Shown here: piece after piece, positions 29,958 through 44,108 of the stretch | How positions within the stretch are numbered: position 1 is the stretch's first letter | Layout of the letters: every line of letters starts with the position of its first letter | NCBI RefSeq assembly: GCF_030269365.1 | Contig: NZ_BSTF01000007.1 | Span: forward strand, 310,001 to 374,000 | Source: Lentzea sp. NBRC 102530 | Lineage (GTDB): Bacteria > Actinomycetota > Actinomycetes > Mycobacteriales > Pseudonocardiaceae | Direction of reading: 5' to 3' | DNA: 64,000 bases | Position numbers and translations under genes: made by a program | Notes under the pieces: generated by a model | The model's database searches: none | Told to the model about the DNA's origin: nothing | What the model saw: only the letters and a program-made list of their open reading frames with translations

Positions 29958-30394
29958 GAGTCCGCGCTGGGACGCACGAAGTCGTTGGTGTGCCAGTAGT
30001 CCACCGCACCCTGGAGCACCGTGCGGAACAGCGTGAAGTTCACCGGCTTGTAGACGTAGCTGTCCGCGCCGGCCTCGTAGCAGCGGTCGATGTCCGCCGA
30101 GGTCGTCGACGAGGTGAAGACGACGACGATCACGTCCTTCAGCCGGGGGTCGGGATCGGCGCGCAGGTCCGCGAGCACGCGGTAGCCGTCCACGCCCGGC
30201 ATGTTCAGGTCGAGCAGCACCAGGGCCGGGAACGACCGGGTGCCGTCGCGCAGCCGGTCCGCGACCCGGTCTCCGTCGGGCAGGAACTCCAGCACGAGTT
30301 CGGGGTGCGAGCGGGACAGGGCGCGCTGGATGGCCTCCCGGTCCTCGTCGCTGTCCTCCACGACCAGCACGAGCTGTTCCTCGCCGGCCGTCAC
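29954..30394 (-). CDS. Single-domain response regulator (Rcp1-like)
   Basis: 146 residues, receiver domain only. Acidic VEDSDEDRE, phospho-acceptor Asp in ALVLLDLNMPGVDG, Thr/Ser in VFTSS and Lys in YVYKPVNF. The LNMPGxDG and KPVNF motifs are typical of the Rcp1-like regulators that pair with bacteriophytochromes. Start is the GTG at 30394, which overlaps the phosphatase stop by 4 bases. It is the likely phosphate acceptor from the phytochrome kinase across the divergent promoter. Confidence 0.9.
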   Translation of the reverse strand: MTAGEEQLVLVVEDSDEDREAIQRALSRSHPELVLEFLPDGDRVADRLRDGTRSFPALVLLDLNMPGVDGYRVLADLRADPDPRLKDVIVVVFTSSTTSADIDRCYEAGADSYVYKPVNFTLFRTVLQGAVDYWHTNDFVRPSADS

Positions 30395-32304
30395 AGAACC
30401 TCCCACCACGTCTCTTCTCCCCGGTGGAACTCCACCCGCGCCCACTCGGCGTCGCCGTCCACGGTGACCCGCACGTCACCCGGTTCGAGCGAGGTGGTGA
30501 GGCGGTCCACCGGTCTGCCCAGCGACCGGACGGCCGCGAGTGCGGCGTCGAGCGCCTGTTCCGCCGGCAGTGTCGTGTCGAGGACCCGGTCGCCCCGGTA
30601 CCGGATCAGCAGCACAGCCGCGTCGTCGTCCACGGCGTACCGGCCGTCGCCCGCGACCAGCGTGCTCGCCATCTGCGGCAACGGCAGTCGGTGCAACGCC
30701 GCCAGCGTGGGTTCCAGGTCGGTGTCGCCGAAGAACGCCCCGGCGGCGTCGCGGGCCTCGACCAGCCCGTCGGTGAAGAGGATCACCGCGTCGCCGGGCC
30801 GCAGCACGTCGTCGGCCGGGGTGAACCTCAGCTCGTCGAGCACGCCGACGAGCGGGCCCCGGCAGGTGCTCTCCTCGATCCCGCCGTCGCGGCGGATGAT
30901 CACCGGTGGTGGATGGCCGGCGGTGAGCGCGCGCATCGGCAGACCGTCGGGGCCGGGCGTGCCGAACGTGATCGTGGCCAGCGTCAGGAACTTGGTGACC
31001 TCGTTGCGCAGCATCTTGGCGTTGAGCAGGCGCACCGCGTCCTCCGCGCGCCCGCCCTCCTCCAGGATCGTCTCGACGGTGTGCCGCGCCAGTCCGGTGA
31101 GGGCCGCGGCGGCGGCGCCTCGGCCGCACACGTCGCCGATGAGCGCGGTGAACCCGGTCGGCTGCCGGACGACGCCGTAGAAGTCGCCGCCGACCTCCAG
31201 CAGGTGGCCCGCGACGTTGTAACCGGTGGCGATCTCGACGCCGGGCAGGTCCGGCAGCACCGAGGGCAGCAGGTGCAGCTGGAGTTCCTCCACCTCCGCG
31301 CGCCGCTGGCTGTAGAGGGTGGCGTTGTCGATGGCGAGCGCCGCCCGTGCCGCGATGTCGCGGACGAACTCCCTGGTGGGCACGCGGCGCGCACCGGCCC
31401 GGTGAAAGAACGTCAGCACGCCGAGGACCCGGCTGCGGGCCTGCAGGACGGCGCTGGTCATCAACTCCAGCCCCACGTCGGCGGGCAGCAGCGACGGCAT
31501 CGGGTCGATCTCGTCACCGGACGCCTGCACCCCGGCCCACCGACCCTGCCGAAGGTGCTCGTTGAGCAGGCGTTCCCGACGCACGTCCACGTGGGCCGCG
31601 GCGATCTGCACCAGCTTGTCGTCGCGCTGGACGTGCACGGCGGCGCCGTCGGCAAGGCCGGGCACCGCCATCCGCACGACCGCGCGGAGGGTCTCGTCGA
31701 CGTCGAGCGACCGCGCGAGCCGCAGCGAGATCTCGGCCAGCACCGCGTCCGCCGCGAGCCTGGTGTCGAGCAACGCCTGGTCGGCGATCCGGTCGTCGGC
31801 CGCGATCACCACGTCGGCGACCTGCCCGAGCGCGGTCGCGACCGTCTCGGCCCCCGCCGCGGCGTCCAGGGTGACGAGCAGCAGGCCCCGGTCCCCCTCG
31901 GCGGCGCGGAACGCCGCGGCCACCACGACGGTGCCGCCGGCCTCGCGCATCCGTTCGGCCAGGTGCGGGGCGAACGCGGCCACCTCGGCCACGGTGAGGT
32001 TCGCGATCTTCGCCTGACCCTCGTCACGCGTCACGAGTTCGGGTGAAGTGGCCACCCACGGCAGCACGTCGGCGGCGAGCCCGGGCGGACCGCTGCGCAC
32101 CCCGCCGTCGTGGTCGGCCCACCGGACGACCGGCACTTCCCCGGACGGGTGGATGCGGGCCCCGAGCACACCGCGGACGTGCGGCAGCTCCAGGAGCCCC
32201 AAGTAGAGTTCCTTCGCGAAGACCTTGGTGCTGCCCGCCGCGAACGCGGCCCGCCACAGGGCGTGCAGGAGGTCCGGCCAGGTCGGCACTCGTCTCTCGG
32301 TCAC
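30391..32304 (-). CDS. GAF-domain SpoIIE-type protein phosphatase
   Basis: 637 residues from the GTG at 32304 (AAAGGAGGT about 10 bases upstream). The N-terminal ~170 residues are an unassigned sensory-like region, followed by a GAF domain (about 185-330) and a PP2C/SpoIIE phosphatase domain (about 355-560; GGDFYGVV, IGDVCGRGAAAAALTG, LTAGHPPPVII, ILFTDGLVEARD, DDDAAVLLIRY), with a short C-terminal extension. Such proteins dephosphorylate anti-anti-sigma factors. Encoded with a response regulator and heme oxygenase, and divergent from the phytochrome, it suggests light-linked stress signalling. The reading frame stays open far upstream, antisense to the phytochrome gene; this is not coding. 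Confidence 0.9.
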   Translation of the reverse strand: MTERRVPTWPDLLHALWRAAFAAGSTKVFAKELYLGLLELPHVRGVLGARIHPSGEVPVVRWADHDGGVRSGPPGLAADVLPWVATSPELVTRDEGQAKIANLTVAEVAAFAPHLAERMREAGGTVVVAAAFRAAEGDRGLLLVTLDAAAGAETVATALGQVADVVIAADDRIADQALLDTRLAADAVLAEISLRLARSLDVDETLRAVVRMAVPGLADGAAVHVQRDDKLVQIAAAHVDVRRERLLNEHLRQGRWAGVQASGDEIDPMPSLLPADVGLELMTSAVLQARSRVLGVLTFFHRAGARRVPTREFVRDIAARAALAIDNATLYSQRRAEVEELQLHLLPSVLPDLPGVEIATGYNVAGHLLEVGGDFYGVVRQPTGFTALIGDVCGRGAAAAALTGLARHTVETILEEGGRAEDAVRLLNAKMLRNEVTKFLTLATITFGTPGPDGLPMRALTAGHPPPVIIRRDGGIEESTCRGPLVGVLDELRFTPADDVLRPGDAVILFTDGLVEARDAAGAFFGDTDLEPTLAALHRLPLPQMASTLVAGDGRYAVDDDAAVLLIRYRGDRVLDTTLPAEQALDAALAAVRSLGRPVDRLTTSLEPGDVRVTVDGDAEWARVEFHRGEETWWEVL

Positions 32305-32352
32305 GCGGCCCGGCACCTCCTTTCCGCACGTCCACCGGGAGCTGGAACGAGT

Positions 32353-34644
32353 ATGCACGACGATCAAGAGCGTTCCGGTACCGACGAGAGCGGACTCGGC
32401 GCCGAGTGGGCTCGTGTCGCGCAGGCGGAGGCCGAGGCGGGCGCGACGTCGTTCGACCTCACGGTGTGCCTGACCGAGCCGATCCACCTGCTGGGCGGCA
32501 TCCAGTCCCACGGCGCGTTGCTCGCGGTGGACGGCTCCGGTGTGGTCGAGGTCGCCAGCGCCAACACGACGTCCGTGCTCGGCGTGGCGCCGGAAGCACT
32601 GCTCGGCACGCCGGTCGAGGCGTTGGTCGGCGCCGAGGGGCTGGCGGCGGTGCGGGCCACGCTGGAGGCGCCGACCGGGGACCGCGGGCTGACCGGGCTG
32701 GTGCTGCCCGCCTCCGGTGGTCACTTCGACGTCACGGTCTACCGCGCGGACGGCCGGACCGTGCTGGAGTTCGAGCCACGCCCGGCGCAGGAGGCGTTCC
32801 GCTTCTCCCAGTTCTTCCCCCGGCTGCGGGCCTCGCTGACCAAGCTCCAGCGCGAACGGACCGTCGTCGACGTGTGCGCCTCGGCGGTGGCCGAGATCCG
32901 GGCCCTGACCGGCTACGACCGGGTGGTCGCGTACCGCTTCGAGGGCCAGGCCGGTCCGGGCGAGGTGATCGCCGAGTCGGTGGCGGACGGGCTGGAGCCG
33001 TGGCTCGGCCTGTGGTTCCCGGCGACCGACATCCCGCCGCAGGCCAGGCGGCTCTACGAGCGCAACTGGATCCGGGTGATCCACGACGTGGACGACGCCA
33101 CGGCCACGCTGCTCCCCCGGGTGCTGCCCGGCACGTCGGCGCCGCTCGACCTGTCCGACTCGTCGTTGCGCACGGTCTCGTCGTTCCACCTGGAGTACCT
33201 GCGCAACATCGGGGTGGCGTCCTCGATGTCGGTGTCGCTGCTGCACTCCGGTTCGTTGTGGGGGCTCATCGCCTGCCACGGCGTCGCGCCGCGGCGGCTC
33301 GACCCCGAGGTGCGCTCGGCCTGCGAGTTCTTCGGCGTGACGCTGTCGCTGCAGCTGGCCGCGCTGGAGGAGGCGCAGACGTCCCGTGCCCGCCACGACA
33401 CCCGCACGGCGCTGTCGCGGCTGGTCACCGAGCTGAGCACGGACATCACCCAGTCCGTCTCGACCAGCGTCGACCTGCTGCACGAGCTGATCGACGCCTC
33501 GGCCGTCGTGCTGCGGCTGGAGGGTGTGACGACGATCGTGAGCGGCGATCCGGAGCTGCTGCTGCCGGGCCTTCACGCGTTGTGGGAGGTCGTGCCCGCG
33601 CTGGACGCCGGCGAGGTCTGGAGTGCCGACACGTTGTCCGCGCACTCCGACTCGCTGGCACCCCATGCCGAGCACCTCAGCGGGGCGCTGGTGCTGTCGT
33701 TGGCCAGCGGCACCGGCGACCTCATCGCCTGGGTGCGCCCGGAACGCCGCGCGAGCCGCACCTGGGCGACCGACCCGGACAAGCCCGTGCAGCTCGGCGA
33801 ACGGGGCGAGCGCCTCACCCCGCGCGGCTCGTCGGCGGTCTACCGGGCCGTGACGCGCGGCCACTGCGTGCCGTGGACCGCCACGGACGAGGCGGTCGCG
33901 AGCGAGTTCGGCCGTGCCGTCAGCACGATGGTGCTGCGCCACCACGCGCGGCTGGCCTCGCTGAACGACGAACTCAGCCGCGCGAACCGCGACCTCGACA
34001 CCTACGCGCACGTGGCCGCACACGAACTGAAGGAACCCCTGCGCGGCATCTTCAACTCGACGGCGTTCATCCGCGAGGACGCCACCGACCTCGACCCCAC
34101 CACCGTCCGCCGCCTCGACACCGTGCAACGGCTGGCGCAGCGGATGGACGAGCTGATCAACTCGCTGCTGCACTTCGCCCAGTTGGGGCACGGGTCGTTG
34201 CGGCGTTCGGAGATCGACCTGCGCGACGCCGTGCTGGCGGCGCTGGAGGTCGCCGGTCCCCGGCTGACCGAGCGGGAGGTCTCCGTCGTGCTGCCCGAGC
34301 CCGGTCGGTACGTGTGGGCCGACGCCGACCGGCTGTCGGAGGTGCTGGTGAACCTGCTGGTCAACGCCGCCAAGTACGCGCGTGCCGACGGACCTCGGGT
34401 GGTGGAGGTGCTGGCCGTCGGCGACGCGGTGCACGTGCGGGACAACGGCATCGGCATCGCGCCCGAGCACCGGACCGAGGCGCTGCGGTTGTTCCGCCGG
34501 CTGCACAAGCGGGACGCGCACGGCGGCGGGCACGGCGCCGGCCTGGCGATCGTGCACCGGATCGTCGAGCGCCACGGCGGGGAGCTGTCGTTGCTCGACA
34601 CCCCCGGTGGTGGCACGACCGTCGTGTTCACGCTGCCGCGCTGA
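32353..34644 (+). CDS. Bacteriophytochrome histidine kinase
   Basis: 763 residues: PAS (about 30-140), GAF (150-325), PHY (335-510), HisKA (H557 in YAHVAAHELKEPLRG) and HATPase (to the end, NLLVNAAKYAR, DNGIGI, GGGHGAGLAIVHRIVERHGG). The biliverdin-attachment cysteine is C39 in VCLTEPIHLLGGIQSHGALL. The chromophore pocket is kept: PATDIPPQAR (Asp of the PASDIP motif), FHLEYLRNIG (His and Tyr) and ACHG, where the usual second His of CHH is Gly. The PHY tongue reads PRGSS rather than PRxSF. It should sense red/far-red light. The 48-bp gap to the phosphatase gene must hold both promoters. Confidence 0.94.
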   Translation: MHDDQERSGTDESGLGAEWARVAQAEAEAGATSFDLTVCLTEPIHLLGGIQSHGALLAVDGSGVVEVASANTTSVLGVAPEALLGTPVEALVGAEGLAAVRATLEAPTGDRGLTGLVLPASGGHFDVTVYRADGRTVLEFEPRPAQEAFRFSQFFPRLRASLTKLQRERTVVDVCASAVAEIRALTGYDRVVAYRFEGQAGPGEVIAESVADGLEPWLGLWFPATDIPPQARRLYERNWIRVIHDVDDATATLLPRVLPGTSAPLDLSDSSLRTVSSFHLEYLRNIGVASSMSVSLLHSGSLWGLIACHGVAPRRLDPEVRSACEFFGVTLSLQLAALEEAQTSRARHDTRTALSRLVTELSTDITQSVSTSVDLLHELIDASAVVLRLEGVTTIVSGDPELLLPGLHALWEVVPALDAGEVWSADTLSAHSDSLAPHAEHLSGALVLSLASGTGDLIAWVRPERRASRTWATDPDKPVQLGERGERLTPRGSSAVYRAVTRGHCVPWTATDEAVASEFGRAVSTMVLRHHARLASLNDELSRANRDLDTYAHVAAHELKEPLRGIFNSTAFIREDATDLDPTTVRRLDTVQRLAQRMDELINSLLHFAQLGHGSLRRSEIDLRDAVLAALEVAGPRLTEREVSVVLPEPGRYVWADADRLSEVLVNLLVNAAKYARADGPRVVEVLAVGDAVHVRDNGIGIAPEHRTEALRLFRRLHKRDAHGGGHGAGLAIVHRIVERHGGELSLLDTPGGGTTVVFTLPR

Positions 34645-34697
34645 GAGTTTCCCTTCGTCCAAGACAGGCCGGGCCGGTCGTTGCGACGATGGTGCGC

Positions 34698-35813: not shown

Positions 35814-37118
35814 TCACACGGACGACACGGGCTGATCGGACGCCCTCGAAAGCACCTCGGCCGAGAGAAGCAGGAAGTCCCGTCCGAAGGACAGCAGCTC
35901 GTCTGCGTCAAGCGCCTGGCGAATGCCGTACAGCACCTCTTCACGCTTGTTGTTCATGGTCGAGAGCAACGACGCCGCACTCGGTGCGTCCGCTCCCGGC
36001 CACGCATCCGCGCACCTCACCTGCCAGGCGGCCCGGTAGAACTCGGTGACCAAGGTGAACGCCGCGATTCCCTGGACCAGACCGCTGATGGGCCGCGGAT
36101 CACGACGCCACGGTGCTTCGTAGCGCAGGTTGTCCGCCCTGTGCATCGGCCGGTCCCACAGAAGCGCTCGGAGCCGGGTGTGCGCGTGTTCGTGAACGAG
36201 CGATTCAGCGATCTGCAGCGGATCTTCCTCGCCGAGGCTGATGCCGAACGCCCCGACGGTGCGTTCGGCCGTGGAGCTGATCATTTCGAGTCGGCGCATG
36301 CCGTAGACGCGACCGTCGAGTTGTTCGTGCGGCACCAGCACCCGCAGCGCGCGCCGGACCTGGCGAGCGGCCGGCGGTTCGACGGACTCCAGCAGGGCTG
36401 TGCCGGCGTCCACCAGGTCGACCCAGTGCTGGGCTCTCGCCTCCCCTGCGCGGAGCGGTTCGACGGGCAGCGGCGTTTCACGCAGGCGCGGGTCGAGACC
36501 GTCCAGCACGAGCTCACCGAGCCGGGTCCGCGGCAACACGGTCGCGACCGCCGTACCCGTGCAGGTCACGCCGGTGTCGTCGTGTGCAAGAGCGGTGGGA
36601 TCGATCTCGACCACGCCGGTGTCACCGGTGACCCGGAGACTGCCGTCGTCCAACGAGTCGACGACGCCGGCGCCGAGCCCGGTGACGACGACCCGGCCGA
36701 GGTGCAATGGCGCCACCCCGGCCGACCACCGCAGCGTGACATCGGGGTGCGCGAGCTGCGCCGCCGCCAGGAAGCCGCCCAGCGCGGAGACCGAGTCCGC
36801 GGTCGGCGGCCCGCAGAGCCAGCCTTCGAGAGCAGGAGACTCGAGCAGATGCTCCACCAACACCGACGGCGCCTCGGAAAGCACCTGCAGCAGGAGCGCG
36901 CACGCCCGGCGGCTGCGGTCGTCTGCCGCTGCCAGATGCGCGGGAACCCTGGCACGGAGGAAGGCCAGCCTCCTGCGGCGCAGCGAGTCGCGCAGCAGCG
37001 CATCGATCTCGGTGTCCTCCGCGTATCCGACGAACGAACGTAGGCAGTCGTCCGGCCAAGGAGCGGGATCGAGGTCCAATCGCGCGTGCAGCTGATCGCA
37101 GACGTGTTCGACGTTCAC
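35814..37118 (-). CDS. HExxH-motif putative peptide-modifying hydroxylase
   Basis: 434 residues from the GTG at 37118 (GTGA overlap with the radical SAM gene). The metal motif HEHAH is at residues 309-313 within LQIAESLVHEHAHTRLRALLWDR. The flanking pattern, with the downstream helix ISGLVQGIAAFTLVTEFYRAAW and an N-terminal all-helical region, matches the HExxH-motif peptide modification proteins known beside or fused to FxsB-type radical SAM enzymes. Members of that class have been reported as alpha-ketoglutarate-dependent iron enzymes that hydroxylate peptide side chains. It is the last gene of the peptide operon and is followed by a hairpin. The residue it modifies is unknown. Confidence 0.82.
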   Translation of the reverse strand: MNVEHVCDQLHARLDLDPAPWPDDCLRSFVGYAEDTEIDALLRDSLRRRRLAFLRARVPAHLAAADDRSRRACALLLQVLSEAPSVLVEHLLESPALEGWLCGPPTADSVSALGGFLAAAQLAHPDVTLRWSAGVAPLHLGRVVVTGLGAGVVDSLDDGSLRVTGDTGVVEIDPTALAHDDTGVTCTGTAVATVLPRTRLGELVLDGLDPRLRETPLPVEPLRAGEARAQHWVDLVDAGTALLESVEPPAARQVRRALRVLVPHEQLDGRVYGMRRLEMISSTAERTVGAFGISLGEEDPLQIAESLVHEHAHTRLRALLWDRPMHRADNLRYEAPWRRDPRPISGLVQGIAAFTLVTEFYRAAWQVRCADAWPGADAPSAASLLSTMNNKREEVLYGIRQALDADELLSFGRDFLLLSAEVLSRASDQPVSSV

Positions 37119-38578
37119 CTGGACTCGCTTTCGATGAGATGGTCCGGCCGCACCGAACACCTCTTGACGCGCCCGTTGACCAGACCGTCGGCACCGAGGG
37201 CAGCGGGTGCGATCACCTGACGCAGCAACACCTCGTGCATCACTTGGTAGGCGGTGCATTGCGGATCTGGCAGCGGAACGGTCCCGCGCGTGCCGTCGTG
37301 CCCCGACAAGGTGCAGCCGCCACCGCAGCTGCGCAGCCACGGACACCCCGCACAACTCTCCGGCACGGCGCGCAGGGAGTCGGCGAGCAGGAGCGGCAGG
37401 CTGAGCCGCCCAGGCGGCCGGAAACCGGTGCCGCCGGTGACGAACCGCGGACACGCGAACACCTCCCCGTCGCTCGCGACGACGTGCAGGCTCCTCCCAG
37501 AGCCGCACTGCCGTGAGGTGCACCCGTCCGCCCAGCCGCGTCGTTCGCCGAGGAGACGCTGGGCGAACTTGGCCGCGGACTGGTCGAGCGCTCCACCGGA
37601 CTCGACCGCCGCGCGGATCGCCCGTTCCATGAACGACGCGTACTCGTCCGAGGTGACTCCCTCCCGGTCCCACGCGGTGGCCGCCTCGCCGTGCGCGAGC
37701 ACCGGTTTGAGGAGGTAGGAGCCAGGTCGATGGGACAGCAGCTCCCCGACCACGAGTTCGGGCACCGCCACGTTGTGCCGGGCCACGGTCGCGATCAGGT
37801 GCGTACTCACGCCCGTCTTCGCGCACCGTTCGAGCGCTCGCACGGCGAGTTCGTGCGACCCCGCCCCGGTGCGGAACATCCGCGCCCGGTCGTGGTGGCG
37901 GGCCGGCCCGTCGAGGCTGAGGCCGACGGTGACTTCGTGCTGCGCCAGGAAGTCCACTGAGGACTGATCGAGGGTGGTGCCGTTGGTCTGGACGGTGAGC
38001 CGGACCTCGCCGGGACTGCTCGCCGCGACTTCACGCGTGTACGTCGCGAGGTGACGCCAGTGCGGGTTGCTGACCGCGATCTCACCGAGATCGACGATGA
38101 TCTGTTCTTCCGGCCGTTGGAGCGCCGACCGGATGGCTTCCTCCGCGAGGGAGAGGTCGATCATCCGCTTCTTGGACGGTGTTTCGTGGCCCAGGTAGCA
38201 GTACGTGCACACCAGGTTGCATCCGCCGTTGAGCAGGAGCACGAGACCGTAGGTGTCACGACAGGCAGCGGCCTCGCCGGCGAGGTCGGCGTCGCCCAGG
38301 ACGTGGCGGTCACCGTCCCGGAGCAGACCGCGCCGCCAGGCCTGCGTGGTCCACGCCGACCCGATGGCGTTGCTGAAACGACGTCCCTCGGTCAGCAGGC
38401 CCGCCTCGACGTCGTCGGTGACGCACCAACCACCGGTGTCGCTGTCGACGAGTGCGACCTGCCCGCCGGGCAACGGGAACCGGCTCAGCGGCGGCACCCG
38501 CAGCTCCCGGTCCGGTGCGACCGCCGTGGTGGCCCGCTGCCAGGCGGGTAGCGCGTTCGGGGGCTCAAGCCACCACAT
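37115..38578 (-). CDS. Radical SAM/SPASM peptide maturase (third radical SAM of the locus)
   Basis: 487 residues. The [4Fe-4S]-SAM motif is C120-x3-C124-x2-C127 (CNLVCTYCYLG). About 110 residues precede it and may hold a peptide-recognition element; this is a guess from length. The C-terminal SPASM region has many cysteines (GCTSRQCGSG, FACPRF, CAGCPWLRSCGGGC, DPQC) for auxiliary clusters. Such enzymes form carbon-carbon or carbon-sulfur crosslinks on ribosomal peptides. The start overlaps the preceding radical SAM gene by 14 bases and its end overlaps the HExxH gene by 4, so all are co-translated. Confidence 0.88.
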   Translation of the reverse strand: MWWLEPPNALPAWQRATTAVAPDRELRVPPLSRFPLPGGQVALVDSDTGGWCVTDDVEAGLLTEGRRFSNAIGSAWTTQAWRRGLLRDGDRHVLGDADLAGEAAACRDTYGLVLLLNGGCNLVCTYCYLGHETPSKKRMIDLSLAEEAIRSALQRPEEQIIVDLGEIAVSNPHWRHLATYTREVAASSPGEVRLTVQTNGTTLDQSSVDFLAQHEVTVGLSLDGPARHHDRARMFRTGAGSHELAVRALERCAKTGVSTHLIATVARHNVAVPELVVGELLSHRPGSYLLKPVLAHGEAATAWDREGVTSDEYASFMERAIRAAVESGGALDQSAAKFAQRLLGERRGWADGCTSRQCGSGRSLHVVASDGEVFACPRFVTGGTGFRPPGRLSLPLLLADSLRAVPESCAGCPWLRSCGGGCTLSGHDGTRGTVPLPDPQCTAYQVMHEVLLRQVIAPAALGADGLVNGRVKRCSVRPDHLIESESR

Positions 38579-39569
38579 GAGGATCCCGGAAGACTTGACC
38601 GGCCGCGCGATCGCGCCACGGCTGGGCGCGGTTCACCCCGGTGCACAGCAGCTGGAACTTGCAGGTCCCGCACACCTCGTGGGTGAGCAGGCCGCCGCGG
38701 GCGGCGACGGCGTCGAAGCTGTCGGCGCCCGAGAGCAGATCGCCGACGGCGCCCAGCGACCGCGGGCGCAGCGGCGGGCAGGTGAAGGCCTCGCCGTCCG
38801 GGCCGACGCACATGTTCATGCTCGTCGGTGTCGCCGGGTTGGGTACGACGGACGCCGAGTCCGGCCACTCGTCGATCAGCACGGGACCCATGAGGACGAT
38901 GCTGAGCCCGGTGGCCGCCTCGAGTGCCGCGGTCCGGCGGTACACCTCGCTCCAGCCGTCCGGTGTGAGACCGTGCGGAGTGCGCCGCGCACGTCCGATC
39001 GCGGCGTGGGGGAACACGACCACGACGCGAGACCCGAGCTCGCGCGCCTGGTGCGCGAGCTGCTCGAGCTCGTCGGCGTTGCCTTCGTGCAGAACGACCT
39101 GCACACCGTCGACCCGCCCGCCTGCAGCACGGAGCCGCTCCAGATTTCGCCACGTGCGTGCCCACGCGCCCTGGCCACGCATCCAGTCGTGGGTCCGCGC
39201 GCTCGCGCCGTCCAGACTGACGTGGTAGCCGAAGGCGTGGCTCTGCCGCTGCAGGCGGGCGACCGCGACGCGATCGGGTTCGCGCATGACCAGACCGTTG
39301 CTCACCAGGCACACCTGGTCGAAACGCAGGGCACACGCGTGCTCGGTGAGGTCCATCACGCCGTGGCGCAGCAGCGCCTCACCGCCGGAGATGGTGAGCG
39401 AGCGGACACCCGCACCGTCGAGCAGCGTGGTGAACGCCTTCCAGTCGTCGATCGTCAACTCCGTCCCGGCCGGCGAGTCCTCCTCCGGCACCGCGCAGTG
39501 GCGGCAGGCCAGGTTGCACCGCTCGGTGACGATCAGCTGCACGTTGTGCGGGTAGGCGCCGTTCTTCAT
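38565..39569 (-). CDS. Radical SAM protein (second radical SAM of the locus)
   Basis: 334 residues, compact. C18-x3-C22-x2-C25 (CNLACRHCAV), the glycine motif TISGGEALLRHG and YHVSLDGASARTHDWMRG. The C-terminus has a short SPASM/twitch-like set of cysteines (MCVGPDGEAFTCPP, CGTCKFQLLC), enough for one auxiliary cluster. It resembles PqqE/AnSME-type enzymes in layout. Start overlaps the oxidoreductase-amidohydrolase gene (ATGA). Its role in peptide modification is inferred from the operon. Confidence 0.88.
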   Translation of the reverse strand: MKNGAYPHNVQLIVTERCNLACRHCAVPEEDSPAGTELTIDDWKAFTTLLDGAGVRSLTISGGEALLRHGVMDLTEHACALRFDQVCLVSNGLVMREPDRVAVARLQRQSHAFGYHVSLDGASARTHDWMRGQGAWARTWRNLERLRAAGGRVDGVQVVLHEGNADELEQLAHQARELGSRVVVVFPHAAIGRARRTPHGLTPDGWSEVYRRTAALEAATGLSIVLMGPVLIDEWPDSASVVPNPATPTSMNMCVGPDGEAFTCPPLRPRSLGAVGDLLSGADSFDAVAARGGLLTHEVCGTCKFQLLCTGVNRAQPWRDRAAGQVFRDPHVVA

Positions 39570-41755
39570 GTCGTGACCGGGGAGTCGATGCCGGGCCTGC
39601 CGTCCGGCAGCAGGCCGGTGAGGTCCGCGATCGCGGCATCGACCGACCAGGCGCCACCGAGGTGACCGGCCAGTTCGGCCAGATCGATGCCGAAGAACGC
39701 CGCGGGGCCGTGCACCAGCATCCCGAGTTTCTGCCGGTCGTCCAGGTCGGTGCGATCACGCACGATGATGATCGGGTCGGGCCACGACCCGTCCTGGTGG
39801 GGCCAGTCGCTCGCGAACAGGAACCTGTCGGCACCGATGAGGTCCAACGTCGGCGCGAGTCCGGCGTCACCGGGTTCGCCGGAGATGACGCACTGGTCGA
39901 GGAACTGCCGCACTGGCGACCGGCTGGGCACGCGGGAGACCAGGGCCATCTTGCGGTACGTGGCGTCCAGTCTGCCGAGCCAGTGCGGGAGCCAGCCGCA
40001 GTCGGCCTCGAAGAGCCCGACCCGGAGCGCGGGATGGCGGTCGAGCACGCCGCCGTCGATGAGCTGGAGCAGTGACAGCTGGTGCTGCAACGGGTAGCCC
40101 ATCTGCCACTGGGTCCGGTTCGCCCACAGCCGCCCCACCCGCAAGCAGTTGTTCGCGGGGTTCACCGCGTGCAACACCACCGGAACGCCGAGCTCGCCGA
40201 ACGCCTCCCACAGCGGGTCGAACTCGGGGTCGCTGAGCCGTACGTCGGGTGCCGTCGTCGGAGGCAGCATCCCCGTGCACGCACCCTGGTCCACCGCCTT
40301 GCGCAGTGCCGAGACCGCGCCGTCGACTTCACGGGTGGGGAGCAACGCGCCCCACCGCAGGCGAATCGGGTCGACCGAGCAGAACTCGGCCATCCAGGCG
40401 TTGTAGACCTCGGCATAGCAAGCCTGCAGCTCCGCACTGTCCACATCGCACAGGCCGAGCATCATCGACGGGAAGAGCACGCTGACCGCGATGCCCTGCT
40501 CGTCCATCACCTCGAGTCGCCGGTGCGGCTCCCACACGCCGCTGTCGACCTCGTGGTCGAAGTCGACGTCGAGCCTGCCTCCCTCGGCGGCGGCGCCCGG
40601 CGTGCTGAGCGTTCCCGTGGTCCACTCGGCCTTGATCCGCCTGCCTTCGAACCAGAGGACCTCACCGTCCTCTTCAGACACTTCGCGGCGCCACACCCGG
40701 TCCCGGAACTTCTCCGGAATCCGTTGCCACAGCTCGAACGGCTCCACGACGTGGCAGTCGGCGTCGATGATCGGCAGCCGCGTCGGGGCGGCCTCCCGAG
40801 GCGTGTGGCGCGTCGGCGAGAACTCGTCCTGCACCGCGCGGAGGTGGGGAGCGACGGTGGCGAGCCACGCCGCCCAGTCCCGCGGCCGGCTCGCGCTCAG
40901 CATCACGAACTTCGTGAGGCCGCCGGCGACGTGAGCGGCGATGAGTTCCCGGAGCGCGTCGAAGCTGTCCGCGACGAGCGACTCGACCGGGAGGTCCGGT
41001 CGATGCCGCCGCAGCACCTGGGCGAGTTCGTCGGGTACGCCGTCCGTAGCCAGGAAGACCATCGTGCCGAAGTGTCCCTGGTCGATCACCCTGCCGTGGC
41101 GGTGCGCCTCCGCGTTGATCGTCTGACGGGCCCGCGCGGTCTCCGCGGGACTCAGGAAGCTGCCCAGCCAGCCGTCGCCCAGCCGTCCGGCGCGGCGCAG
41201 CTCGGTGGTGCTCATTCCGCCCAGCCACAGGTCCAGGCACCGCGTGGGCTGCGGCCCGACGGAGATCCCGTCGTAGCGGTGGAACTCTCCTTCGTGCGTC
41301 ACGGTCTCGCCGGACAGGAGACGCCGCACCAGCGGGAGCGCCTCGTCCATGCGGCGGGCGCGCTCGTCCGCGCGAACGCCGAACGCCTGGTGTTCCTCGT
41401 CCTCCCGGGTACCGAGGCCGAACACCGGCAGCATCCTGCCTCCGCTCAACTGGTCCAGGGTGCCGAGGTCCTGGGCGAGCAACGCGGGCTCGCGGCCCGG
41501 CACGACGGCGACGCTGGTGCCGAGCTTGATCCTGCGGGTGCGGCCGGCGGCGACAGCCAGCCCGACCAGCGGGGAGAACACGTCCGTCGTCGCGTGCTCG
41601 CTCAGCCACAGCGAGTCGATTCCGAGCTCCTCGCAGGCGTCGACGACGCAGCCGAACTCCGCGGCGTCGCGGACCATCCGGTGCAGACCCAGCCCCAGCC
41701 CGATCCGAACGGCGTCCACCGCGACGACCGGGGTCTTGCTGTCGAGAGCGGTCAT
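39566..41755 (-). CDS. Fusion of luciferase-like monooxygenase and amidohydrolase-2 domain
   Basis: 729 residues with two complete enzymes. Residues about 15-320 are a bacterial luciferase-like, probably F420- or flavin-dependent oxidoreductase (LGIDSLWLSEHATTD, RIKLGTSVAVVPGREPALLAQDLGTLDQLSGGRM, PTRCLDLWLGGMS, GDGWLG). Residues about 345-700 are an amidohydrolase-2 (ACMSD-like) barrel with DADCHVVEP, VVLHAVNPANN, GWLPHWLGRLD and FASDWPHQDGSWPD, i.e. the metal-binding Asp/His set. Both ends overlap radical SAM genes by 4 bases. Acting on the peptide itself or on a cofactor or tailoring group is equally possible. I know of no such fusion in a described peptide pathway. Confidence 0.85.
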   Translation of the reverse strand: MTALDSKTPVVAVDAVRIGLGLGLHRMVRDAAEFGCVVDACEELGIDSLWLSEHATTDVFSPLVGLAVAAGRTRRIKLGTSVAVVPGREPALLAQDLGTLDQLSGGRMLPVFGLGTREDEEHQAFGVRADERARRMDEALPLVRRLLSGETVTHEGEFHRYDGISVGPQPTRCLDLWLGGMSTTELRRAGRLGDGWLGSFLSPAETARARQTINAEAHRHGRVIDQGHFGTMVFLATDGVPDELAQVLRRHRPDLPVESLVADSFDALRELIAAHVAGGLTKFVMLSASRPRDWAAWLATVAPHLRAVQDEFSPTRHTPREAAPTRLPIIDADCHVVEPFELWQRIPEKFRDRVWRREVSEEDGEVLWFEGRRIKAEWTTGTLSTPGAAAEGGRLDVDFDHEVDSGVWEPHRRLEVMDEQGIAVSVLFPSMMLGLCDVDSAELQACYAEVYNAWMAEFCSVDPIRLRWGALLPTREVDGAVSALRKAVDQGACTGMLPPTTAPDVRLSDPEFDPLWEAFGELGVPVVLHAVNPANNCLRVGRLWANRTQWQMGYPLQHQLSLLQLIDGGVLDRHPALRVGLFEADCGWLPHWLGRLDATYRKMALVSRVPSRSPVRQFLDQCVISGEPGDAGLAPTLDLIGADRFLFASDWPHQDGSWPDPIIIVRDRTDLDDRQKLGMLVHGPAAFFGIDLAELAGHLGGAWSVDAAIADLTGLLPDGRPGIDSPVTT

Positions 41756-43005
41756 CGGTTGCTCTTCTCCGGCTCGAAGGCGGTGCGGACGACGTCGAGG
41801 TCGAGCCCGCGCTGGACCAGTTGGGCCGTGACCCGTCGTTCGACGTGGGAGATCAACGCGTACAGGTCGGCGCAGTACACGGAGGGGTTGAGGAACCCGG
41901 TGCCCGGCCGGTACCGATGCGAGTAGAGGCCACCGCCGCAGACCTCGGCGAACTTGCAACGACGGCAGGTGTCGCTCAGCGCGTCGGCACCGATCTGGCG
42001 CGCCGTGACGCCGGGCAAGGCGAGCACGTCGTCCAGCGGGTGGTCGAACGCGTTGAGCCCGGTGGCCGCGGCACCCTCGTAAGCCGCCTTGAGACTGTCG
42101 ACCTGTTCGTAACTCCCGTCCGTCTCCACCACCAGCAACCCGACCGGGCGGAGTCCGAACGACTCGTAGCTGATACGGCCGCCGAGCAGGAGGTTGATCA
42201 CGTCCTCGAAGATCCGCACCCCGGCCTGTTTCACCGGCGCGTCGAACCACTCGTCGAAGATCGGCAGGAGCCAGTCGGCGTAAGGCGTGGCACCGTCGCC
42301 GGGAGTCAGACCCGGAGGCGGGTTCGTCCAGGTGCCGTGCGGCAGCAGGAAGTCGACCTGGGGAGTGCCGAGCTCCAGCATGCTGTGCCAGACCCGCAGA
42401 GGGTCCGACGGGAGCTGGATGGTGCACAGCACGCCACCGAAGGCGGCGCGGTGCTCCGGGCGCAGCATCGTCCGCACCCCCGCGGACGCGGCTCGGTAGC
42501 TCGACCTGCCGTTGCGGAATCGGCGGTGCAGGTCGTTCGCCGCCTCGTCACCGTCGAGGCTCACCCCGACGCAAACCCCTTCGCGCACGAGGAACGCGGC
42601 CGTCTCCTCGTCGAGGAGCACGCCGTTCGTCTGAAGGGAGAACCTGACGCGCACATCGCCGAGTTGCTCGCGCACAATGGAGATGAACCGCTCCAGGTAG
42701 TCGCGCCCGCACAGGAGTGGTTCTCCACCGTGCATGCTGATGCTGACCTGCTCGAGCCCGTGCAGGGCGGAGTGCTCGCCGATCCGCGCCGCCGCCGCGC
42801 GCACGGTCCGTTCGGACATCCTGTTCGGCTGCTGCCGCCAGCTGGAGTCGGCGAGGTGGTAGACGTAGCAGTAGTCGCAGTTGAGGTTGCACCGCGACTG
42901 GACCTTGAGGATGAACTCGCTGAGCGGCCGCGGCTGCCAACCGTGCCGTATCAGCTCTGCGGCATCGACCGCGCCGTTGTCCGGCCACTCACCGATCGGC
43001 TTCAT
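41752..43005 (-). CDS. FxsB-like radical SAM/SPASM peptide maturase (first radical SAM of the locus)
   Basis: 417 residues from the ATG at 43005. C39-x3-C43-x2-C46 within SRCNLNCDYCYVYHLADSSW, then MHGGEPLL, SLQTNGVLLDEETAAFL and GVSLDGDEAANDLHRRF are close to the FxsB family, whose usual substrates end in FxSxx-COOH. SPASM cysteines at the C-terminus (CRRCKFAEVCGGGLYSHRY, YCADLYALI). It is the maturase nearest to the precursors (7 bases after the second precursor gene), so it is the best candidate to act first on them. It lacks the C-terminal HExxH extension of some FxsB proteins, supplied here by a separate gene. Confidence 0.9.
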   Translation of the reverse strand: MKPIGEWPDNGAVDAAELIRHGWQPRPLSEFILKVQSRCNLNCDYCYVYHLADSSWRQQPNRMSERTVRAAAARIGEHSALHGLEQVSISMHGGEPLLCGRDYLERFISIVREQLGDVRVRFSLQTNGVLLDEETAAFLVREGVCVGVSLDGDEAANDLHRRFRNGRSSYRAASAGVRTMLRPEHRAAFGGVLCTIQLPSDPLRVWHSMLELGTPQVDFLLPHGTWTNPPPGLTPGDGATPYADWLLPIFDEWFDAPVKQAGVRIFEDVINLLLGGRISYESFGLRPVGLLVVETDGSYEQVDSLKAAYEGAAATGLNAFDHPLDDVLALPGVTARQIGADALSDTCRRCKFAEVCGGGLYSHRYRPGTGFLNPSVYCADLYALISHVERRVTAQLVQRGLDLDVVRTAFEPEKSNR

Positions 43006-43012
43006 CCCCGGC

Positions 43013-43186
43013 TCACCACGGGTTCGACGAGTGCGTGTTCGTGTGGTCGGTGTGGGCGTTGATCTCGTCGGCGCCGCCGTCCCGCTCACGGCCCAACCGC
43101 ACGAGCGCCCGCTCGATCGCGCTTTGCCCGGCCTGCTCACCGCTGAGGACGGTGCCGGCAGCAGCCGTACTCCCCTGTGACGTCAT
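43013..43186 (-). CDS. RiPP precursor peptide 1 (C-terminus AHTDHTNTHSSNPW)
   Basis: 57 codons from the ATG at 43186. The leader includes GQSAIERALVRLGRERDG; the last 14 residues are AHTDHTNTHSSNPW. The 48-residue product of the preceding gene ends AHTDHTAFSSNPW, and the leaders share G-[QR]-S-A-[IL] and RER. Conservation concentrated at the extreme C-terminus of two small tandem ORFs right before radical SAM genes is the mark of ribosomally made, modified peptides. No cysteine is present, so modifications would have to target His, Asp, Asn, Thr, Ser, Phe or Trp. The FxsB-like gene starts 7 bases downstream. Confidence 0.85.
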   Translation of the reverse strand: MTSQGSTAAAGTVLSGEQAGQSAIERALVRLGRERDGGADEINAHTDHTNTHSSNPW

Positions 43187-43211
43187 GGTGGCCCCCGCAA
43201 GTCGTGGTTCA

Positions 43212-43358
43212 CTACCAAGGATTCGACGAGAACGCGGTGTGATCGGTGTGCGCGGTGGCCTCGACCTCCGGTTGGCTGTTTTCTCGCTCACGGCGTTCGA
43301 CAGCGATGGTCAATGCACTTCGGCCGGTCTCGGTCGATTCGTCTTCCTCACCCGTCAT
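43212..43358 (-). CDS. RiPP precursor peptide 2 (C-terminus AHTDHTAFSSNPW)
   Basis: 48 codons from the ATG at 43358, with a strong ribosome-binding site (AGGGAGGAG 4 bases upstream). The leader is acidic at first (MTGEEDESTETGRSALTIA) and then mixed in charge (RRERENSQPEVEA), followed by the shared C-terminal block AHTDHTAFSSNPW. It is the first gene of the peptide operon, 25 bases upstream of precursor 1. Compared with precursor 1 the variable part is one residue shorter (AF against NTH), while AHTDHT and SSNPW are unchanged. Confidence 0.87.
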   Translation of the reverse strand: MTGEEDESTETGRSALTIAVERRERENSQPEVEATAHTDHTAFSSNPW

Positions 43359-43646: not shown

Positions 43647-44108
43647 GTGGACCCCACTGACGAGGCTCTGATCCGACTCAACCGCGCGTACATCAACAGT
43701 CTGACGGAAGAGTTCGTGCGGATCGTCATGGTTGCGCACCGGCCTTCGTTCGACCAGGGCGTGGCCCACGCCCGTCACGTTCAACGACCGGTCAGCGTTC
43801 CCATCCCAGAACTGGACAACTCCTTCGAGATCCAATACCGGCCTGACGGACTGATCTGGCAGTTCCTCGTCACTCCGGAACACGACCACCTCTTCGAGTT
43901 GTCCCACATGGACAGGTGGTTCCTGTACCGGCTCGAAGGCACCACGTGGCGCGCAGTCTCCGCCGACGGCGGACCGCTTCCTGACATGTCGCTGCACGAC
44001 CTGAAGCTGGCTGCCATCGACGTACGGCGGCTGCTCGGCGACTACCTGCGAGTTCACCACCTGCCACTGCCGCACGATTCCGGCTTTCTCACACAACAAC
44101 AGGCATGA
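43647..44108 (+). CDS. Protein of unknown function, divergent from the peptide operon
   Basis: 153 residues from a GTG start with GAAAGG upstream. Soluble, no signal peptide or membrane segment. It is rich in aromatic and histidine residues in the centre (IWQFLVTPEHDHLFELSHMDRWFLYRL) with a helical C-terminus (MSLHDLKLAAIDVRRLLGDYL). I do not recognise a family. It is transcribed away from the peptide precursors, sharing their intergenic region, and converges on kdpE. A role in the peptide pathway is possible from position only. Confidence 0.65.
   Translation: MDPTDEALIRLNRAYINSLTEEFVRIVMVAHRPSFDQGVAHARHVQRPVSVPIPELDNSFEIQYRPDGLIWQFLVTPEHDHLFELSHMDRWFLYRLEGTTWRAVSADGGPLPDMSLHDLKLAAIDVRRLLGDYLRVHHLPLPHDSGFLTQQQA

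Follow-up and report, generated by a model that had tools for sequence, protein, structure and literature searches.

A predicted FxsB-type RiPP operon of Lentzea sp. NBRC 102530 with two tandem precursors and a putative histidine anchor

The analysed stretch of Lentzea sp. NBRC 102530 DNA (the window, 64,000 nucleotides) contains seven genes on the minus strand, which extend from the start of a small ORF, A2, at position 43358 down to 35814. A2 and a second small ORF, A1, come first. The intergenic gaps amount to 25 nt between A2 and A1 and 7 nt between A1 and the gene for an FxsB-like protein, and with the start codons chosen here the subsequent genes overlap by 4, 4, 14 and 4 nt up to the last one, which encodes an HExxH protein. 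Judged from this arrangement, the overlapping and closely spaced genes form one operon. A search for a sigma-70-type promoter upstream of the operon gave no match. A kdp operon lies to one side of it. On the opposite side there is a gene for a histidine kinase of the phytochrome type (32110-34644, plus strand), which overlaps a long minus-strand ORF (30391-34662) that codes, close to its end, for a SpoIIE phosphatase domain. A divergent ORF of 153 aa (43647-44108, plus strand) faces the operon; it has no assigned family and a G+C content of 0.62, compared with 0.71 for the window.

A2 (43212-43358, minus strand) encodes 48 aa with the leader GRSALTIAVERRERE and the C-terminus AHTDHTAFSSNPW; A1 (43013-43186, minus strand) encodes 57 aa with the leader GQSAIERALVRLGRERD and the C-terminus AHTDHTNTHSSNPW. 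The shared C-terminal core, for which the two ORFs had been singled out in the original prediction, is present: 11 core residues (AHTDHT and SSNPW) are identical, and the score of a local alignment of both peptides (81) was reached by none of 5000 shuffles, the best of which scored 54. Five of the 11 shared codons differ, every change being synonymous, and only 8 of the 24 residues preceding the first core His are common to both leaders. Because the core residues are kept via synonymous codons and the leaders have diverged, A1 and A2 show the pattern expected of RiPP precursors. A chance origin of the core likeness was also considered and is ruled out by the shuffle test together with the synonymous codon differences. 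A degenerate pattern for HTDHT matched nowhere in the 9.5-Mb genome except at the sites in A1 and A2, compared with one match for the reversed control. The ATG of A2 is preceded at a short distance by the stretch GGGAGGAG, and upstream of the A1 start there is just a GGGGG run. The third-position GC content is 0.69 for A2, compared with 0.86 for A1 and 0.83-0.91 for the enzymes of the operon. The coding bias of A2 is thus weaker than that of A1 and the enzymes, which is a weaker point for A2 as a gene. Read as triplets of the type aromatic-x-small, the cores are HTD-HTN-T-HSS in A1 and HTD-HTA-FSS in A2, in both cases followed by NPW.

The original prediction had placed both ORFs directly ahead of FxsB-like and other radical SAM genes, and this is confirmed by the domain searches. 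The first enzyme gene (41752-43005, minus strand) encodes a radical SAM/SPASM protein of 417 aa, a presumed cyclophane synthase, which matches the FxsB family TIGR04269 with 454.1 bits (cut-off 370); we take this family to be the same as IPR026335. The protein also matches the radical SAM domain of ChlB in the PDB with 272 bits. The next gene (39566-41755, minus strand) encodes a fusion protein of 729 aa, in which an LLM/F420-type oxidoreductase is joined to an Amidohydro_2 domain (Pfam PF00296 and PF04909), and its best NCBIfam match is TIGR03854 with 270.1 bits, under the cut-off of 295.6. It is followed by genes for two further proteins with a Radical_SAM domain, one of 334 aa (38565-39569, minus strand), with TIGR04053 as best family, far below the cut-off, and one of 487 aa (37115-38578, minus strand), with about 110 unassigned N-terminal residues. 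Neither protein passed an NCBIfam cut-off among the 25 matches listed for each. The first 111 residues of the 487-aa protein hit no Pfam family at E 10, and AlphaFold2 run on the single sequence gave a mean pLDDT of 38.5 for this protein; that its N-terminal part could be a recognition domain is a guess. The last gene (35814-37118, minus strand) encodes a predicted aKG-HExxH-type peptide beta-hydroxylase of 434 aa from a GTG at 37118. Tested as 35814-37115, it matches TIGR04267 with 81.8 bits (cut-off 40), and it matches ChlH in the PDB with 34.9 bits around HEHAH and PWR.D.RP..GL; a fused homologue in the PDB matches as well. The fusion gene and the aKG-HExxH gene had not been mentioned in the original prediction. 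Its view that A1 and A2 are precursors of an FxsB-type RiPP operon is well in line with the conserved core, the diverged leaders and the FxsB gene next door.

This gene content also bears on two other readings of the product. The C-terminal NPW is conserved in A1 and A2, and one operon unites a hydrolase domain with several oxidative enzymes, as might be expected if a small redox cofactor or a modified C-terminal amino acid were made, similar to mycofactocin or PQQ; the Trp would then be kept, and the LLM protein, the amidohydrolase and the two radical SAM proteins would trim the rest. However, the 334-aa protein scored only 63.8 bits with mycofact_rSAM (cut-off 265) and 58.8 bits with pqqE (381), and the 487-aa protein 47.8 bits with mycofact_rSAM (265), all below the cut-offs, and conservation extends into the core upstream of NPW; we consider such a product improbable. 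A peptide that chelates a metal through its His/Asp-rich core, with or without cross-links, would suit the 14-residue end of A1 with three His and one Asp and that of A2 with two His and one Asp. But no metal transporter or metal regulator was found among the operon genes, and metal binding alone leaves the enzyme set unexplained, although it could be the activity of the product. As the purpose of the operon, metal binding seems very improbable.

The precursors of FxsB enzymes are sought by the FxSxx rule, and this rule fails for A1 and A2. A C-terminal Phe-x-Ser-x-x is absent, A2 having FSS followed by three residues and A1 having HSS, and the precursor model for FxSxx-COOH peptides, TIGR04268 (cut-off 28 bits), matched neither of them even at E 10. 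The same model matched all three ordinary precursors given (L051, L050 and L004) and the precursor of a sibling cluster described below with 39.8-51.9 bits. The leader was used as a guide to the target residue. FxsB genes are common: in a sample of 394 genomes from the class, matches at E up to 1e-60 occurred in 79, counting the window's own. Among 77 loci around FxsB matches, 23 contained ORFs ending in F.[SN].., 26 ORFs in total. Most of these ORFs carry a leader motif, xx[VA]L..[SA]L.R, at a constant distance ahead of the Phe, with Leu at -21 in 18 and Arg at -15 in 19 of the 26. A leader profile covering positions -24 to -9 before the Phe was built from the FxSxx-type ORFs without any window sequence, using 18 ORFs (8 of the 26 were dropped by eye as implausible) or 13 after removal of near-copies.

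With the 13-row profile both peptides had their best anchor at the first His of HTD, which scored 2.0 in A1 (next anchor -11.5; 15 of 1000 shuffles as good) and 5.5 in A2 (next -10.7; 0 of 1000). These anchors were unchanged with 26, 18 or 13 training rows and two pseudocounts, and the second-best ones, position 49 in A1 and 42 in A2, were 11 to 16 bits lower. Over all shuffle tests the result is strong for A2 (0/2000 and 0/1000) and moderate for A1 (4/2000 and 12-15/1000). The spacing from the leader motif to the first His of HTD in A1 and A2 thus equals that from the leader motif to the Phe in FxSxx precursors. Judged from the leader, the residue equivalent to the cross-linked Phe would be this His, not the C-terminal FSS/HSS. 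The original prediction had stated that the end of the core resembles the FxSxx-COOH rule without matching it: the mismatch holds, as the TIGR04268 result indicates, but the likeness appears to have been sought in the wrong place. When the 18-row profile was run over the 77 loci, 42 of their 1593 ORFs scored above 3, anchored on Phe in 30 cases (training ORFs included), on His in two, one of them the sibling precursor, and on another residue in 10. With this profile A1 scores -0.8 and A2 3.7, so that absolute scores vary with the training set and a cut-off of 3 would miss A1. Two further ORFs upstream of FxsB genes were noticed. One (L103) has an FxsA-like leader followed by a C-terminal HMVKL, that is, a His anchor without such triplets; the other (L048) is FxSxx-like and carries the segment NKGNFNSFI/NRGNFNSFI twice at its C-terminus.

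The closest relatives of the window's FxsB are six proteins from one other family (L037-L042), which are 57-62% identical to it and group with it at 100/100 in a tree of 78 rows. Upstream of all six genes lies an ORF with the leader SAL[DE]HAL[AV]RR and the core AY[VA]HNSGP followed by a CAM-like residue; the longer of these ORFs carry a variable tail after AY[VA]HNSGP. The one HNS precursor given to NCBIfam (L037) was not found by the FxSxx model. Five of the six, all except L039, were given to the leader profile, and with the cleaned profile the His of HNS was the best anchor in each of them, although four of the five scores were often reached by shuffles (83-372 of 1000) and one precursor, L040, had a higher-scoring non-His anchor in the uncleaned run with all 26 ORFs. 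A His, with HNS in place of FxS, therefore seems to occupy the anchor position in the sister clade too. This clade shares with the window the SAL[DE]HAL leader and the His-x-Ser core, but in stretches of 8.5-18 kb around its FxsB genes there is no relative of the HExxH protein, the fusion or the extra radical SAM proteins apart from one weak LLM match of 29% (L070), and its core continues into a variable tail, unlike that of A1 and A2.

The HNS precursors at the same time provide an argument for a different register. The pattern [HF]-x-S-[GN]-P is common to them and to A1 and A2, and by eye HNSGP aligns with HSSNP/FSSNP, A1 having H-x-S at this place as in the clade, so that such a register is conceivable. 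FxsB would in that case cross-link the C-terminal FSS/HSS, and HTDHT would be a recognition sequence or the target of another enzyme. A2 even contains F-x-S to the letter, and it is in this motif that MscB installs its cross-link (PMC11002830). Neither F43 of A2 nor H52 of A1, however, is among the best two anchors of the leader profile, and we regard cross-linking confined to the C-terminal triplet as unlikely.

A second cluster with a His-containing precursor was found in a genome of the same other family as the HNS clade (G893; L096/L126). Located at L126:804-13041 and L128:8829-9698, this sibling cluster consists of a 66-aa precursor ending in HTSTTHNSSFSQGTW (HTS...W), FxsB, a stand-alone HExxH protein, an ORF of no family, a B12-type radical SAM protein below the family cut-offs, a carbamoyltransferase, a further ORF, an FxSxx_TPR protein and a TIGR03854 LLM protein, in this order. 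A gene for a BTAD-type regulator lies upstream of it (L126:14549-18427). The sibling precursor matches TIGR04268 with 43.1 bits, residues 13-55 aligning with profile positions 1-43 of 44, and from the ends of this match its HTS would be placed at the FxS position. The leader profile also selected the His of HTS as anchor (15.2; 0 of 1000 shuffles). The FxsB of this cluster is 46% identical to that of the window; it sits on a long branch and joins L043 at 82/84, a tree place that is not firmly supported. The HExxH proteins of both clusters show 29% identity over 439 aligned columns. Like the window, the sibling cluster combines a precursor, FxsB, a stand-alone HExxH protein and a TIGR03854-type LLM protein. 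Unlike the window, it contains the B12-type radical SAM, carbamoyltransferase and FxSxx_TPR genes and an unfused LLM gene, and, apart from FxsB itself, it lacks relatives of the window's other two radical SAM proteins. As actinobacteria frequently carry LLM genes, their presence in both clusters is only suggestive of a link.

The FxSxx_TPR gene of the sibling cluster, which includes an NB-ARC domain (NF040586, 474 bits), brings in a role in conflict systems, in which the peptide would act as signal or toxin together with TPR/NB-ARC/TIR proteins. Such a role has been proposed for FxSxx systems (PMC7159879). Among those window neighbour products that were given to Pfam, a subset of the window ORFs, no FxSxx_TPR, NB-ARC or TIR domain was present, and the annotated neighbours are kdp, phytochrome-kinase and other genes. 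For the operon of the window we therefore consider this role highly unlikely.

The distribution of the individual parts was analysed in further genomes. The pattern HTDHT...NPW gave six matches in genome contigs, in a search which may omit the window's own or very near genomes; all six were in MAGs outside Actinobacteria and none was a valid core. Four were out of frame, one had a stop in between (L026), and one, although in frame, was immediately preceded by a stop and had none following it (L022). At E 1e-30 no orthologue of the 487-aa radical SAM protein turned up in the order, for which 396 other genomes were searched; at E 1e-20 there was a match of 27% identity in one of 219 other genomes of the family, and at E 1e-15 matches of 25-34% identity in 9 of 395 other genomes of the phylum. 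Around the family match there was no precursor, fusion or HExxH gene, and the only FxsB match was a weak one at the same gene. The 334-aa radical SAM protein had no match in 295 other genomes at E 1e-25, and the LLM-Amidohydro_2 fusion had one in 196 at E 1e-70, with the LLM part only. These genome samples overlap and are not additive, and as the best 3-7 first-look candidates were scored per genome, misses are possible, above all with the LLM query. In plasmid records the best 25 of 86 matches to the 487-aa protein were all below 30% identity, and the best 12 of 19 FxsB matches showed 36-52%. The HTDHT...NPW core was thus present in no other searched genome, and in the sampled genomes the further enzymes of the operon neither occurred together nor had relatives close enough to count as orthologues.

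The expectation that the ending would define a family across genera accordingly holds in a looser form only: the exact HTDHT...NPW occurs in no other species genome, but the HNS clade and the one HTS...W sibling are more distant relatives. The original prediction had also been made dependent on conservation of the ORFs in relatives that keep the radical SAM genes, and here the outcome is half against it. At all five FxsB loci taken from the genus (L004, L006-L009) the ORFs end in FQN.., and the FxsB proteins of these loci are 46-52% identical to that of the window, so they are not orthologues. A literature search by enzyme and family terms, with most subscription journals outside its range, brought up no recognisable description of this precursor type, and a search by the core letters retrieved unrelated papers only.

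Taken together, we favour, at a probability of about two in three, an FxsB-type operon for a RiPP with three-residue cyclophanes (a 'triceptide') from what looks like a rare, His-anchored branch, in which FxsB would install one or more His-based cyclophanes before the HExxH enzyme hydroxylates the peptide; the chemistry is inferred. A1 and A2 are probably cross-linked and hydroxylated by the adjacent enzymes. MscB, a member of the FxsB family (IPR026335), forms a bond from Phe C4 to the Cbeta of a Ser two residues further on; C2 of His is bonded to the Cbeta of Ala by HaaB and to that of Arg by YhhB, and YxdB bonds Tyr C3 to Asp Cbeta (PMC11002830). A ChlB/ChlH-type protein is reported to hydroxylate His and Asp in dependence on a preinstalled cyclophane (PMC12636437). 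From these links, the matches to ChlB and ChlH and the core triplets we propose a His-Asp cyclophane at HTD followed by beta-hydroxylation. FxsB would recognise the leader motif, take a hydrogen from the Cbeta of Asp and join this carbon to the His imidazole within HTD; it might then proceed to HTN/HTA and HSS/FSS. Once the peptide is cyclised, beta-hydroxylation of His and/or Asp by the HExxH enzyme would follow. Later steps, perhaps at the conserved C-terminal NPW, may fall to the F420/amidohydrolase fusion and the remaining two radical SAM proteins, but these roles are guesses. None of the operon genes was recognised as coding for a protease, so leader removal probably depends on one whose gene lies outside the operon.

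A more far-reaching version is tentative: one core could carry three cyclophanes in a row, mostly on His (His-Asp; His-Asn or His-Ala; His-Ser or Phe-Ser), could be beta-hydroxylated by the stand-alone HExxH enzyme and could have its C-terminal Trp finished by the F420/amidohydrolase fusion and the two radical SAM enzymes that lack a family assignment. Its His-Asp cyclophane would add to the cross-links named in the literature surveyed, among which there is none of this type. The operon offers a place to test for the formation of His-Asp cyclophanes by FxsB enzymes, for their action along several triplets and for the role of an F420-type oxidoreductase in such a pathway. The leader register, which still points to a target, with His replacing Phe, where the rule fails, could reveal FxsB precursors overlooked by motif searches.

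Compared with the FxsB/FxSxx-COOH triceptides, of which MscB has been characterized, the operon has the FxsB-family enzyme, the same leader register and the position of the precursor beside fxsB in common. In contrast to these systems it has a putative His at the anchor instead of Phe, a core of 12-13 residues that runs to a Trp instead of ending in xx-COOH, two tandem precursors, additional enzymes and no match to TIGR04268. Both activities of the fused radical SAM/aKG-HExxH protein ChlB/ChlH are predicted in the window by likeness to the solved domains. They are fused in one chain in ChlB/ChlH, whereas in the window they are encoded by two genes accompanied by those for the extra enzymes. 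His and Asp, both present in the core of A1 and A2, are reported targets of ChlH (PMC12636437). The parts of the operon are of known kinds, and its novelty would lie in the putative His anchor, in the arrangement of two precursors in tandem and in the fusion enzyme.
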